Source: Lophium mytilinum
Lineage: Eukaryota > Ascomycota > Dothideomycetes > Mytilinidiales > Mytilinidiaceae
Direction of reading: 5' to 3'
Assembly: GCA_010093605.1 (NCBI GenBank)
Contig: MU004200.1
Location: 688,155 to 752,154 of the forward strand
DNA length: 64,000 nt
Position numbers and translations under genes: made by a program. The notes beneath the pieces are model-generated. The model was not told where the DNA came from, searched no databases, and saw only the letters and a list, made by a program, of their open reading frames with translations. This document shows, in pieces, positions 58,084 to 62,517 of the stretch. The first letter of the stretch is position 1. Each line of letters begins with the position of its first letter.

Positions 58084-60612
58084 CTAATCTCTACCCTCCA
58101 TCTTCCACTTATTTAGATTCTTAAGCGAAGTCTCTGTGTGAGGATGCCGAGGGCCAAGAACCTGCCTGCATTGCTGAACGCACTCTTCCATCAATGAGAT
58201 GGCCTCTCTATTCCGGCTTTGGAACTTCCACGTGTGTGCCAGGTTGTTCATGCCAGTTAGCGTGTCCGTATGCGCCGGCCCAAGCACCCTCTTGCGTATC
58301 TCTATTACTTGCACGCCTAGCTCTTCGGCCTCTTTCCACCGCCCTTGATTAGCATACGTCAACGCCAAGTTATTTACGCTAGCTAGCGTATTAGGATGCT
58401 CCTCTCCAAGCACCCTCTTTGTTATCCCTACTACTTTTACTCCTAGCTCTTCAGCTTCCTTCCACCGCCCTTGATTGTTGTACGTTAACGCTAGGTTGCC
58501 TATGCTAGCCAGCGTGCTCGGATGCTCTTCTCCAAGCACCCTCTTTCTTATCTCTACTACTTGCACGCCTAGCACTTCAGCCTCTTTCCACCGCCCTTGA
58601 TTCTGATATATCAACGCCAGGGTATTTATACTAGCTAGCGTGTCTAGATGGTCCTCTTTAAGCACCCTCTTTCCAATCTCTATTACTTGCAGCTGCAGCT
58701 CTTCGGCCTCCTTCCACCGCCCTTGATGACGGTATACTATTGCTAGTTCGTGCATGGTGCTTACTATAGAAGGGTGCTCGGCCACAAGTACCCTTTTTCT
58801 TGCCTCTAAAACTTGCTTAAACAACTCTTCAGCCTCTTTTGACCGCCCCGCAAAGCCTAATGATTGCCCTAGCAAGAGCATACTACGTGAAGTATATTCA
58901 TGCTCTTTGCCATACAGTTTTATAAAAACCTGTACTACCATCTTTGATAGCTTCTCGGCATCACTTAGACTTCCTTTCAGCTGTGCATACCAGGCCGCGT
59001 TGTGCAACAATAGAGCCCACCGTTCAAGGGATCTCTTAGATCTAGGCTGCTGCAATAGCGCCGACACAGCATGCGGGAAAAGAGGCTGGCATTGCGCCCA
59101 GTTCTCGAATCTCCCTGTCGGAAATGCTCTGCAAAGATTGTCGATGTATTGCTCCTTCCACGTTTCTAGTTGACCCTGTGCTTCCAGCCATTTCCGCGTG
59201 GCGAGCTGCACAAGCCTATGCATGTCGAATGTGGTTGCATCGGTGGTAAGCGTGATAAAGGAGTAGTTCCTCAGCGTGAGGATGTCGTCTTCGAATCCGT
59301 CGTCAACGCTGGCTTCCGACTGGCCATCGTCGTTGTCACTGTCTTGGAGTCTGTAGTCAACGCTGGCTTCCGACTCGATGTTGTTGCTATTACTGGGCTT
59401 GCCGTTTGTCTTCGTAGCGCTCAGGGGTCCATGGCTGTCGCCAGTCTCACTTCGCCTGTGGATGAGCGTTTCGGGAATCCCCTGCCGGTCAAAGAAGCTC
59501 ATTAATGAAAGGAGGTCTGCGGCCGACCGCCTTGCCTCAAGTAAGTGATCAAACGAGATTTGCCACGTTATGAGAATAGAGTTCTTGGCTTCTTCGTCTC
59601 TCCGAAGGTGGCCTCCATCGTAATTCAACAGACTTGTCTTTTCCTTGTCGCTTTTGCGGAACTTCGCTAGGTACTGCTGCACCGAACACCGTGGTGCTCG
59701 TTGTCGGATGTACGCCGCCGCCTGCACGAGAGCAAGTGGCATGAATTCGAGTGCGTCTGCTAGCTCGGCAGCGTTGTTCTGGTCGACTTCTTCTCCTATT
59801 TTCTTCAGCAGAAGCGCTCGTGCGCCGGCGTCGTCCATGGGATTGATAGGTATGATATCTCTTTCTTCCACCAGCTGCAATGCCACCGCCCTATTCCGAC
59901 TGGTGACCAGGACCGAGCCGTTCTTGCTCTGGGGCAGATATGACGAGAAGTAACGCGGAGGGCCACCGCTTGCTGGTAAAGAGAGAGCAGCGGCATCGTC
60001 GGCATTGTCGAGGACCAGCAGCCACTTCCCATTCTTCTCATTGCGGAGCCAGTTGTGGACAAGTTGGAAAACATCCGCTTTCGGGTCGTTCCGGCCAGCA
60101 AGCTTGACTTGGTCTGCGATGGCTTGGTAGCCTTGTTGGATGCGAGCCGCGGTGCTGGCATGTACCCAGAACACCCACGTCTCTGGTGACTGGTCCGCGA
60201 TTCGATAGCAGTGCTCAATGGCGAGCTGCGATTTCCTATACCTATGTTAGGTTAAAGATCTCACCTAGGGGTTCTTTGGGCTTACCCCACACCACCGAAG
60301 CCCACCAGCGCTATGCGGGACGCCGGTGCGGAGCATCCTTCGCGTATCTGATCGATTAGCGTTCCGCAATCGACAAAGTCTGGGTCGCGGCGAAATGGGA
60401 CGACGCAGGAAGGGCTCGGTGGGGTCTCCGGTCGTTCTTGAAGAAAGCAGAAAGCTGTTAGCGTTACTATATCCAGGGCAAACTCTGACCGACACAATCA
60501 GCAACTCACGAGCCTGGTGGAAGTGGGCATCAATGTGGCCTGGGTTATGCCCAACTTGCAGTCCTTGGTTACTGGAGCCCGAGAACGTAGAGTTGAAGGT
60601 AGGATTGGCCAT
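58084..60612 (-). CDS. NLR receptor: amyloid-like motif, NB-ARC, TPR
   Basis: Fungal NOD-like receptor, 801 aa. Exons are 60612-60510, 60436-60286 and 60235-58084. Residues 10-31 carry FSGSSNQGLQVGHNPGHI followed by a final F, a motif shared with the HeLo protein next door. A linker (PETPPSPSCVVPFRRDPDFV) leads to NB-ARC: P-loop GFGGVGKS at 80-87 (split by intron 2), LLVLDNADD (Walker B), GSVLVTSRN, and FMPLALVQAAAYI (GLPL-like). From about 540 come TPR units of 42 residues with WKEAEELGVQVxEIRKRVLG and HPxTLASxNNLALTYxNQGR. Intron 1 ends in CAAG. No separate N-terminal effector domain is present; the motif appears to take its place, as in NWD2 and PNT1. It probably senses a ligand through the TPRs, oligomerises with ATP and seeds the HeLo tail. 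Confidence 0.9.
58190..58865 (-). repeat. 126-bp tandem units coding NLR TPRs
   Basis: The string CTCTTC(G/A)GC(C/T)TC(T/C)TTCCACCG or a close variant recurs at 58321, 58447, 58573, 58699 and 58825, exactly 126 bp apart. A weaker sixth unit lies at about 58195. The central units are near-identical over long stretches, while the outer ones are more diverged. This is one TPR (42 residues) per unit. Confidence 0.9.
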
Positions 60613-61722
60613 TTTCAAAAGCCCGAAGACCTTGACGCTTGCTGGTCCCTTGCAAATTTAAGAGTTGACGATGAGTGCGGGGGCAGTTTCCATCAGGCTG
60701 AGCTTCAGCTGAAATCTGCCTTTTCATGCAAGGCTGTGGGGCTGAGCAGATTCGTATCATTTTAGAGGCGTCCTACCTGCTTTTGGCACATCAAGGACGG
60801 GGATCCATCAAGCTGGCTGTATCGATTGCCTCTCTTTACGTGTCCACCACGCAAGCCTCCTTTTCCGGGCCAGTCTTGAGCTGGCTTTGAGGTTGATTAG
60901 CTGGGAGAAGAGGCTGTAAATGTGTTCGTATGACAAAGCTCTAAATAACCTGTTTCTGCAGCGCCGTAGCGCTGAGGCACACAAGCCCTACCTATCAGAC
61001 AGCTAAGATACGAAGTTATCTTGCAGCAAGATATATCAGCTGAACTACTCCGGCAACTTAACGCGCCAATAGCTGGCGGCTCAGCCTCGTAGCCTTGTTG
61101 AAGAGGCGAAATGAGGCTGGCGCCAGATGGAAAAGAAGCGGGACCATCGAACTGAAAAAGCGGCCGGGTTACGGAACTTTTTGAGAGTAAGACTAAAAAG
61201 AATGAACCATTTCGCAAGAATGTAGTGGAAGTTGTTAGAACTAACAGCTCACCGGCAGGTCGGTGAGCGATAGATGAGAGCGGGTCGCCCCGCGATTAGA
61301 CTGAACACTCCCGAGGCCAGGGACACTGTCCACAGCAAGTTCCCGCCGATCCCTGACGCCTATCTCCCCTGCTGTATTGGGACTGCAGTATCCGGCCTGG
61401 ACTTCGAGAGTGCCTCACTGCACAGCCGTGCGCGTTCCAAGATGAAAACGCTACAGTTTCTACACAAAAAAGATACGCCTAGTACCGCAGTCTAGCCCTG
61501 CGTACTTGTTGACTTTGTGCGCTGTTGATAGCTCCGTGTCCTAGGACCCCGCAAGGCTGATATTTAGCTCGACGCCGACTGTTAGGCAACGCGTTCACCT
61601 TCCAACAACAATCTAAGGAGCAGAGGTCCACAGCAGAACCTTTGTTGAAGGCTACTTTTACTGCTCTGTTAAGAATTTCCTCTCCGGCCTACGCTCTCTA
61701 CTCCCCAAACCCGATCTACTCA
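60613..61722. promoter_or_regulatory. Divergent intergenic region NLR / HeLo
   Basis: 1.1 kb between the divergent start codons of receptor and presumed effector. Short frames without resemblance; the HeLo frame is open about 80 bp upstream of its ATG without another ATG. Shared control is plausible, but no site is identified. Confidence 0.4.
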
Positions 61723-62517
61723 ATGGCAGAAGTTGCCAGTCTTGCTGTCGGTGTTATCGCTCTTGCTGGACTCTTCAACAACACTATCGAGTGCTTCGAA
61801 TTCATCCAGCTTGGCCGTAACTTTGGGAAGAGCTTCCAGACAAGCCAGCTCAAGCTTGACAATGCAAGACTCCGCCTATCTCGCTGGGGCGCTTCCCTAG
61901 GATTAGGCGACAGCCCCCAAGAAATACAATCGCTGGAACAGCGCTTTGGTTCCGGCCAAAAATCTGACCAGGCCGAAGCTCTACTTGGCCAGATCCTCGA
62001 CCTGTTTGCTGAAGCTGAAGGCATGTCGCAAAAGTATAAGAGGCGGACAAAGGCTGGTGACAGCAGCCTCGCAGTATTCCATCCGGAAACAGATCTCGAA
62101 CCTGCAAACGTAGATCTTCATCGAAAGATGCGGCAACTCTCTATCGACCGTCAAAACCGGACTGGCCTGCGGGCGAAGACAAAATGGGCATTGTACGAGG
62201 AGAAGCGCTTCAGAAGACTGCTTGAAGATGTCATCGAACTAGTCAACAGCCTCGTCGAGCTCTTTCCAGCCAGTCAAGCGGTCCAGCAACAGCTCTGCCA
62301 GAGAGAGGCGGCCGTGATTGGTGCAGATGAAGATATCTCGATGTTACAGGAGATCGCTGCGGAGCAAGACAAGGCTTTGGAAACAGCTCTTGCAAAAGTT
62401 GCCAAGAGTACGCGAGGGTCAACGACTGTTGTGTTTTCTGGCAGCAACAATACTGGCTTCCAGCTAGGTTCTAATTCCGGTTCAATTAGCGGCTTTACCT
62501 TCGGGAAAGGCAACTGA
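61723..62517 (+). CDS. HeLo-domain cell-death effector with amyloid-like tail
   Basis: HET-S-like protein, 264 aa, single exon from ATG 61723. The N-terminus matches the HeLo domain closely: VGVIALAGLFNNTIECFEFI, QLGRNFGKSFQTSQLKLDNA and RLRLSRWG, the same order as in HET-s (VAGLFNNCVDCFEYVQLGRPFG). The globular helical part ends near residue 225. The final 30 residues, TTVVFSGSNNTGFQLGSNSG then SISGFTFGKGN, form a Gly/Asn/Ser-rich tail that lacks HET-s-type R1/R2 repeats but matches the NLR N-terminus. In HET-S the HeLo domain inserts its N-terminal helix into membranes once the tail adopts the amyloid fold, killing the cell. By analogy this is the pore-forming partner of the divergent NLR gene. 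Confidence 0.9.
   Translation: MAEVASLAVGVIALAGLFNNTIECFEFIQLGRNFGKSFQTSQLKLDNARLRLSRWGASLGLGDSPQEIQSLEQRFGSGQKSDQAEALLGQILDLFAEAEGMSQKYKRRTKAGDSSLAVFHPETDLEPANVDLHRKMRQLSIDRQNRTGLRAKTKWALYEEKRFRRLLEDVIELVNSLVELFPASQAVQQQLCQREAAVIGADEDISMLQEIAAEQDKALETALAKVAKSTRGSTTVVFSGSNNTGFQLGSNSGSISGFTFGKGN

Follow-up and report, generated by a model that had tools for sequence, protein, structure and literature searches.

A divergent NLR–HeLo gene pair with matching PP motifs in Lophium mytilinum, a probable two-component signalosome

A stretch of 64,000 nucleotides of contig MU004200.1 of the ascomycete Lophium mytilinum (the window), part of a 43.2-Mb genome in 24 contigs, contains two divergently oriented neighbouring genes that encode an NLR receptor and a HeLo-domain effector. 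The NLR begins, and the HeLo protein ends, with a motif of the PP (pseudopalindrome) family; the genome search reported no other copies, and the pair recurs in related fungi. By analogy with characterised fungal systems, we consider it highly probable that the locus is a two-gene amyloid signalosome of the PP type, in which activation of the NLR would template the tail of the HeLo protein and bring about cell death.

The PP motif at the two termini

The receptor-side motif, FSGSSNQGLQVGHNPGHI, occupies residues 10-27 of the NLR (60532..60585, minus strand) and scores 25.2 bits against PF17046 (Ses_B; E=1.5e-05), and the effector-side motif, FSGSNNTGFQLGSNSGSI, occupies residues 238-255 of the HeLo protein (62434..62487, plus strand) and scores 30.9 bits (E=2.4e-07). 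Both scores exceed the curated Pfam cut-off of 23.2 bits, the matched segments spanning NLR residues 2-27 and effector residues 233-257. A passage of PMC12261475 equates PF17046 with “PP (misnamed SesB)”. The motif was named in 2012 after the pseudopalindrome FxGx(x)NxGLQLxGxNxGxL (PMC3321046), and its definition, as given in the relevant part of PMC9815663, is a pseudopalindromic NxGxQxGxN core; this core is present in both Lophium copies, as NQGLQVGHN and NTGFQLGSN. A sequence-only reading of this DNA had proposed that an amyloid-signalling-type motif joins the two proteins, and the Pfam profile search of both termini, which returned PF17046 on each, points the same way. Its suggestion that the core of the HeLo tail is closer to PP or RHIM-like motifs than to HET-s repeats likewise held, as PF17046 identifies a RHIM-like PP motif and the HET-s repeat is unmatched.

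The two copies have in common the consensus FSGSxNxGxQxGxNxGxI and are identical at 11 of 18 residues without a gap; the motif strings and consensus given in the earlier reading were exact, except that its “trailing F” proved out of register (the HeLo tail has F at I+3 and I+5, the NLR at I+4). When both termini were shuffled 100,000 times, none of the shuffles reached 11 identities and the maximum was 10. In a six-frame search of the genome, PF17046 gave two matches, namely these two (the best candidates were scored, so that further copies are not strictly excluded), and a third PP gene, for example a lipase, was not reported among them.

Effector, receptor and layout of the locus

The effector is encoded by a single exon (61723..62517, plus strand), an open reading frame from the ATG at 61723 that specifies 264 residues (P0001 in our list of homologues). 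Residues 7-210 (61741..62352, plus strand) match PF14479 with E=1e-52 and 179.4 bits against a cut-off of 23.2, covering profile positions 2-204 of 205 and hence its full length. Residues 2-226 match the PDB chain 2wvo_A (SMALL S PROTEIN, HET-s/HET-S) with E=8.4e-37, and 2wvn_A and 2wvq_A were also matched; by homology to these crystal-structure chains, the effector carries a true HeLo domain. In Pfam at E<=1 the effector matches only HeLo, Ses_B and, below threshold, DUF4726, and on this basis a HELL (HeLo-like) effector is rejected, as is an HRAM effector with HET-s-type repeats, the HET-s prion domain having no match at the same threshold; the search covered Pfam and did not extend to the five HRAM subfamily profiles or the published HELL profiles. 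The tail holds one PP motif, not two C-terminal HET-s-type repeats of about 21 residues. Position 33 is where HET-s and HET-S differ functionally, according to PMC5485727 in the part consulted. The Lophium residue is N, and P occurs in none of the 115 readable sequences among the 120 listed homologues (5 unreadable). We take P at this position to be the inactive HET-s form and, because residue 33 is N, the protein looks by this criterion like an active executioner.

The receptor gene (58084..60612, minus strand) encodes 801 residues in the order PP motif, NB-ARC, DUF7779 and TPR, for which Pfam returned Ses_B, NB-ARC (PF00931, 7.4e-07), DUF7779 and TPR_10 (7.1e-79, in 7 stretches). The NB-ARC nucleotide-binding domain, recognised by PF00931 and direct reading, spans residues 75-283 (59641..60317, minus strand), with the Walker A sequence GFGGVGKS and intron 2 inside. 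The TPR array (58238..58727, minus strand) consists of a tandem 126-bp (42-aa) unit in 3.9 copies with 78% matches by Tandem Repeats Finder and is matched by TPR_10. An NB-ARC domain with the P-loop GFGGVGKS and superstructure-forming TPR repeats together characterise the protein as a fungal NLR (STAND). Its gene model runs from the ATG at 60612 to the stop at 58084 in three exons (60612-60510, 60436-60286 and 60235-58084) separated by two introns (60509-60437 and 60285-60236), and the product agrees letter for letter with the NCBI protein P0121, “TPR-like protein [Lophium mytilinum]”. An acidic insert in the NLR (window 59302-59373) contains a duplicated SEASVD segment, with identical stretches of 18 bases at 59302 and 59356.

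The start codons of the two genes face apart across an intergenic region of 1,110 bp (60613..61722), which presumably holds both promoters. Coordinates were re-checked on the DNA, and the pair, its divergent orientation and both motif copies all lie where the earlier reading had placed them. A neighbouring gene contains a match to Peptidase_C65 otubain at 55132-55440 (PF10275, E=1.8e-23).

Across the genome, the NB-ARC region of the NLR found 12 reported matches, two of which are the NLR gene itself, and six HeLo matches were reported. A scan for the G-h-Q-h-G pattern on both strands, judged by eye, showed no convincing PP head at the other NLR and HeLo loci scanned, and at one of the six HeLo loci, on C11, Pfam gave HeLo and no PF17046 at E<=1. 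One paralogous NB-ARC NLR (L012, G000:C3:1719893-1723894) has SesA in front (PF17107, E=4.2e-18) in an “all-in-one” design, with a single TAG within the matched stretch, perhaps in an intron. A further locus (L006, G000:C3:1991224-1994910) has a 744-codon open frame that opens with HeLo and whose later part resembles, by eye only, a protein kinase-type domain.

Recurrence of the pair in related fungi

The earlier reading had asked for a scan of other Pezizomycotina for NLR–HeLo neighbours with the same consensus, and homologue searches show that the pairing recurs in relatives. The HeLo protein found 341 proteins, and 112 of the 120 listed, own protein included, carry both PF17046 and PF14479. 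The PP frame NxGxxxxxNxG is kept in 113 of the 120 listed tails; six of the seven misses are small variants, differing by no more than a few residues, and the seventh, P0119, is truncated. A short conserved extension, SGFTFGKGN, follows the effector motif (62488..62514, plus strand), and 110 of the 113 framed tails have an extension of this shape with F, W or I as the last hydrophobic residue, F, W or Y following the motif in 111 of the 113. NLR residues 1-250 found 1,399 proteins among the 8,000 best word-sharing candidates, which were those scored, and a PP frame stands near the N-terminus in 48 of the 120 listed.

At least 17 HeLo proteins (62 compared) lie on apparently the same contig as 18 listed NLRs (78 compared), own pair included. 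The number is a lower bound, the comparison covering 62 of the 120 HeLo proteins, mostly on longer contigs, and the first 78 of the 120 NLRs; a shared contig was deduced from equal size and usually the same species name, rather than read from the contigs. Examples are the Delitschia and Melanomma pairs, on equal-size contigs of 9,678 and 15,966 bases, and in Puttea exsequens the HeLo and NLR genes have consecutive locus tags. The NLR head is of the PP type in 17 of the 18 linked rows, own pair included, and the remaining record starts inside the protein. The HeLo protein is 81% identical to that of Mytilinidion over its full length, and an identity of 87% is reached over NLR residues 1-250.

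Some of these homologues are observations in their own right. In Alternaria burnsii the HeLo protein P0119, whose tail lacks the second half of the motif in the record, and two PP-type NLRs (P0134 and P0148) are each on a contig of 19,857 bases, apparently one effector with two receptors. P0111 (421 aa, from a metagenome contig of 1,450 bases) has TPR repeats that run in frame into HeLo-PP, either a read-through of a tandem NLR–HeLo arrangement or a true fusion. Many homologous NLR heads, such as P0155, P0159, P0213 and P0214, carry a PP-like but different motif, FGDxNxGFQxGxxNGxV, possibly, as a guess, the PP-like motif 39 named in PMC9815663.

Proposed mechanism, rival explanations and known systems

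In Lophium the steps would be those of the characterised PNT1/HELLP and NWD2/HET-S systems, from ligand sensing and oligomerisation through amyloid formation and templating to membrane attack. The NB-ARC/TPR receptor would sense a ligand through its TPR array and oligomerise, and the oligomer would gather several N-terminal PP motifs into an amyloid seed. This seed would template the HeLo protein at its one C-terminal PP motif, and conversion of the tail would release the N-terminal helix of HeLo for insertion into the plasma membrane, leading to cell death as a host defence or non-self response.

Several observations weigh against such a mechanism. By pattern, 72 of the 120 NLR homologues listed show no PP frame at the head, so that the wider NB-ARC family is, by this count, not tied to PP; these 72 have FGDxNxGFQxG-like, HET or SesA heads, are truncated records or are near misses, one of which, P0123, still scores above the PF17046 cut-off at 26.2 bits. 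Among the linked NLRs, the heads of P0161 and P0198 preserve the frame, with scores under that cut-off. The PP pore-forming effectors tested in living cells, as far as the published passages at hand describe them, carry HELL rather than a true HeLo domain, and aggregation, toxicity and receptor–effector interaction are, for the Lophium pair, predictions from sequence and analogy. Finally, motif likeness is not pair-specific: for 15 linked pairs (18 rows less P0177, whose receptor record lacks the N-terminal end, and both P0119 rows with the truncated tail), it was 10.67/19 within pairs versus 10.57/19 over all combinations (permutation p=0.36; p=0.35 without the Mytilinidion pair).

Since motifs are no more alike within pairs than across them, private locks find no support, and co-evolution specific to individual pairs is not apparent in these sequences, the test being small. 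The lack of a within-pair excess fits the statement in the consulted part of PMC7885112 that PP identity within a cluster is comparable to the identity between the HELLP motifs of its two species. Receptor and effector copies nonetheless differ as sides: column 7 is T or S in 14/15 effectors vs 1/15 receptors, column 11 is V in 6/15 effectors vs 14/15 receptors (effectors carry L, V or I), column 18 is M in 10/15 vs 0/15 and column 19 is S in 14/15 vs 0/15. Column 15 is alike on the two sides, with S in 15/15 effectors and 12/15 receptors, and nearly all 15 pairs retain the G-x-Q-x-G core in both copies. Because the columns were picked after inspection and the pairs share descent, common ancestry could by itself account for these signatures. 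It is possible, though we hold it rather doubtful, that HeLo-PP in Dothideomycetes and beyond forms one shared, interchangeable code, with side-specific motif variants, a hydrophobic extension behind the effector copy and no private pairing; if so, any PP receptor, also one from another species, could fire a true HeLo domain via one motif unit.

The same side signatures, at columns 7, 11, 18 and 19, could mean different roles for the two copies, and would then favour an explanation in which the motif is a passive, non-amyloid scaffold or docking tag, for example one that stabilises the NLR oligomer, with amyloid templating playing no part in recruiting the HeLo protein. A discussion heading in PMC9815663 names internal motif instances as scaffolds for NLR oligomers, and amyloid formation is here itself a deduction. 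We regard this explanation as improbable, as PP relatives behave as prions in Podospora and set off HELLP toxicity there (PMC7885112, in the section consulted), and the G-x-Q-x-G core persists on both sides of nearly every pair.

Still less probable is that the locus is a relic without function, or that the HeLo protein represents an inactive prion form like HET-s. The genes are known from sequence alone, one homologue tail (P0119) is without the second half of its motif, and the TA/AT ratio is raised in the TPR part of the NLR (1.41 at 58501-59000). Against this, reading frames are intact and introns normal in both genes, position 33 is N rather than P, and the identities to relatives of 81% (HeLo, Mytilinidion) and 87% (NLR residues 1-250) suggest selection, judged from identity rather than dN/dS. 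Two indices of repeat-induced point mutation (RIP), read against cut-offs taken from general background, disagree on whether it has acted (0.95 and 1.25 for the NLR, 0.68 and 1.52 for the HeLo gene). Chance likeness of two glycine- and asparagine-rich ends has a negligible probability: compositional bias is present at both ends, but shuffles never attained the observed identity, both ends pass the PF17046 cut-off and linked pairs recur, and with the genome search these results refute chance low-complexity similarity.

The earlier suggestion that this combination of domain and motif may be new did not stand. A HeLo protein with a C-terminal PP motif beside an NB-ARC-TPR receptor with a matching N-terminal one had already been described from Arthroderma otae and A. 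gypseum (Daskalov 2012, PMC3321046), and a count of 2015 gave 98 PP hits for 579 HeLo-related (HeLo, HeLo-like, sesA) proteins (Daskalov 2015, PMC4518210). The consulted text of PMC9815663 places PP (motif 07) on 296 NLRs, accompanying both pore-forming and enzymatic effectors. The Arthroderma pairs share the Lophium design and differ in species, and the Lophium motif matches their published consensus, a likeness by description rather than alignment. The HeLo + PP combination is therefore not new, and the pair is a further, ordinary example of a known arrangement; the Lophium locus itself may not be in print, as the papers found on this point do not mention Lophium mytilinum.

Two characterised groups frame the comparison. 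PNT1/HELLP of Podospora anserina and CgPNT1/CgHELLP/CgSBP of Chaetomium globosum have the same PP class, NB-ARC-TPR receptor, adjacent genes and C-terminal PP motif, but their pore-forming domain is HELL, whereas the Lophium effector is HeLo, and C. globosum also has a PP lipase (SBP), whereas no third PF17046 match was reported in Lophium. Podospora PNT1 and HELLP work through PP prions, for which prion formation and receptor–effector cross-seeding have been demonstrated (PMC7885112, as excerpted). NWD2/HET-S of P. anserina likewise combines a true HeLo effector and an adjoining NLR through a common terminal motif; HET-S, however, has two 21-aa beta-solenoid repeats where the Lophium effector has one PP motif, and NWD2 is a NACHT-WD rather than an NB-ARC-TPR receptor (PMC3321046 and PMC7885112, in the parts consulted).

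The pair opens no new class of system; it is a real, intact and well-conserved pair, very probably a PP signalosome of a known sort. It adds a clear two-component example with a true HeLo effector from Mytilinidiales, one that recurs in many related fungi. As the PP pore-forming effectors tested in cells, in the published passages, carried HELL, the pair would be a convenient system in which to ask whether one PP unit is able to activate a HeLo domain of the HET-S type.

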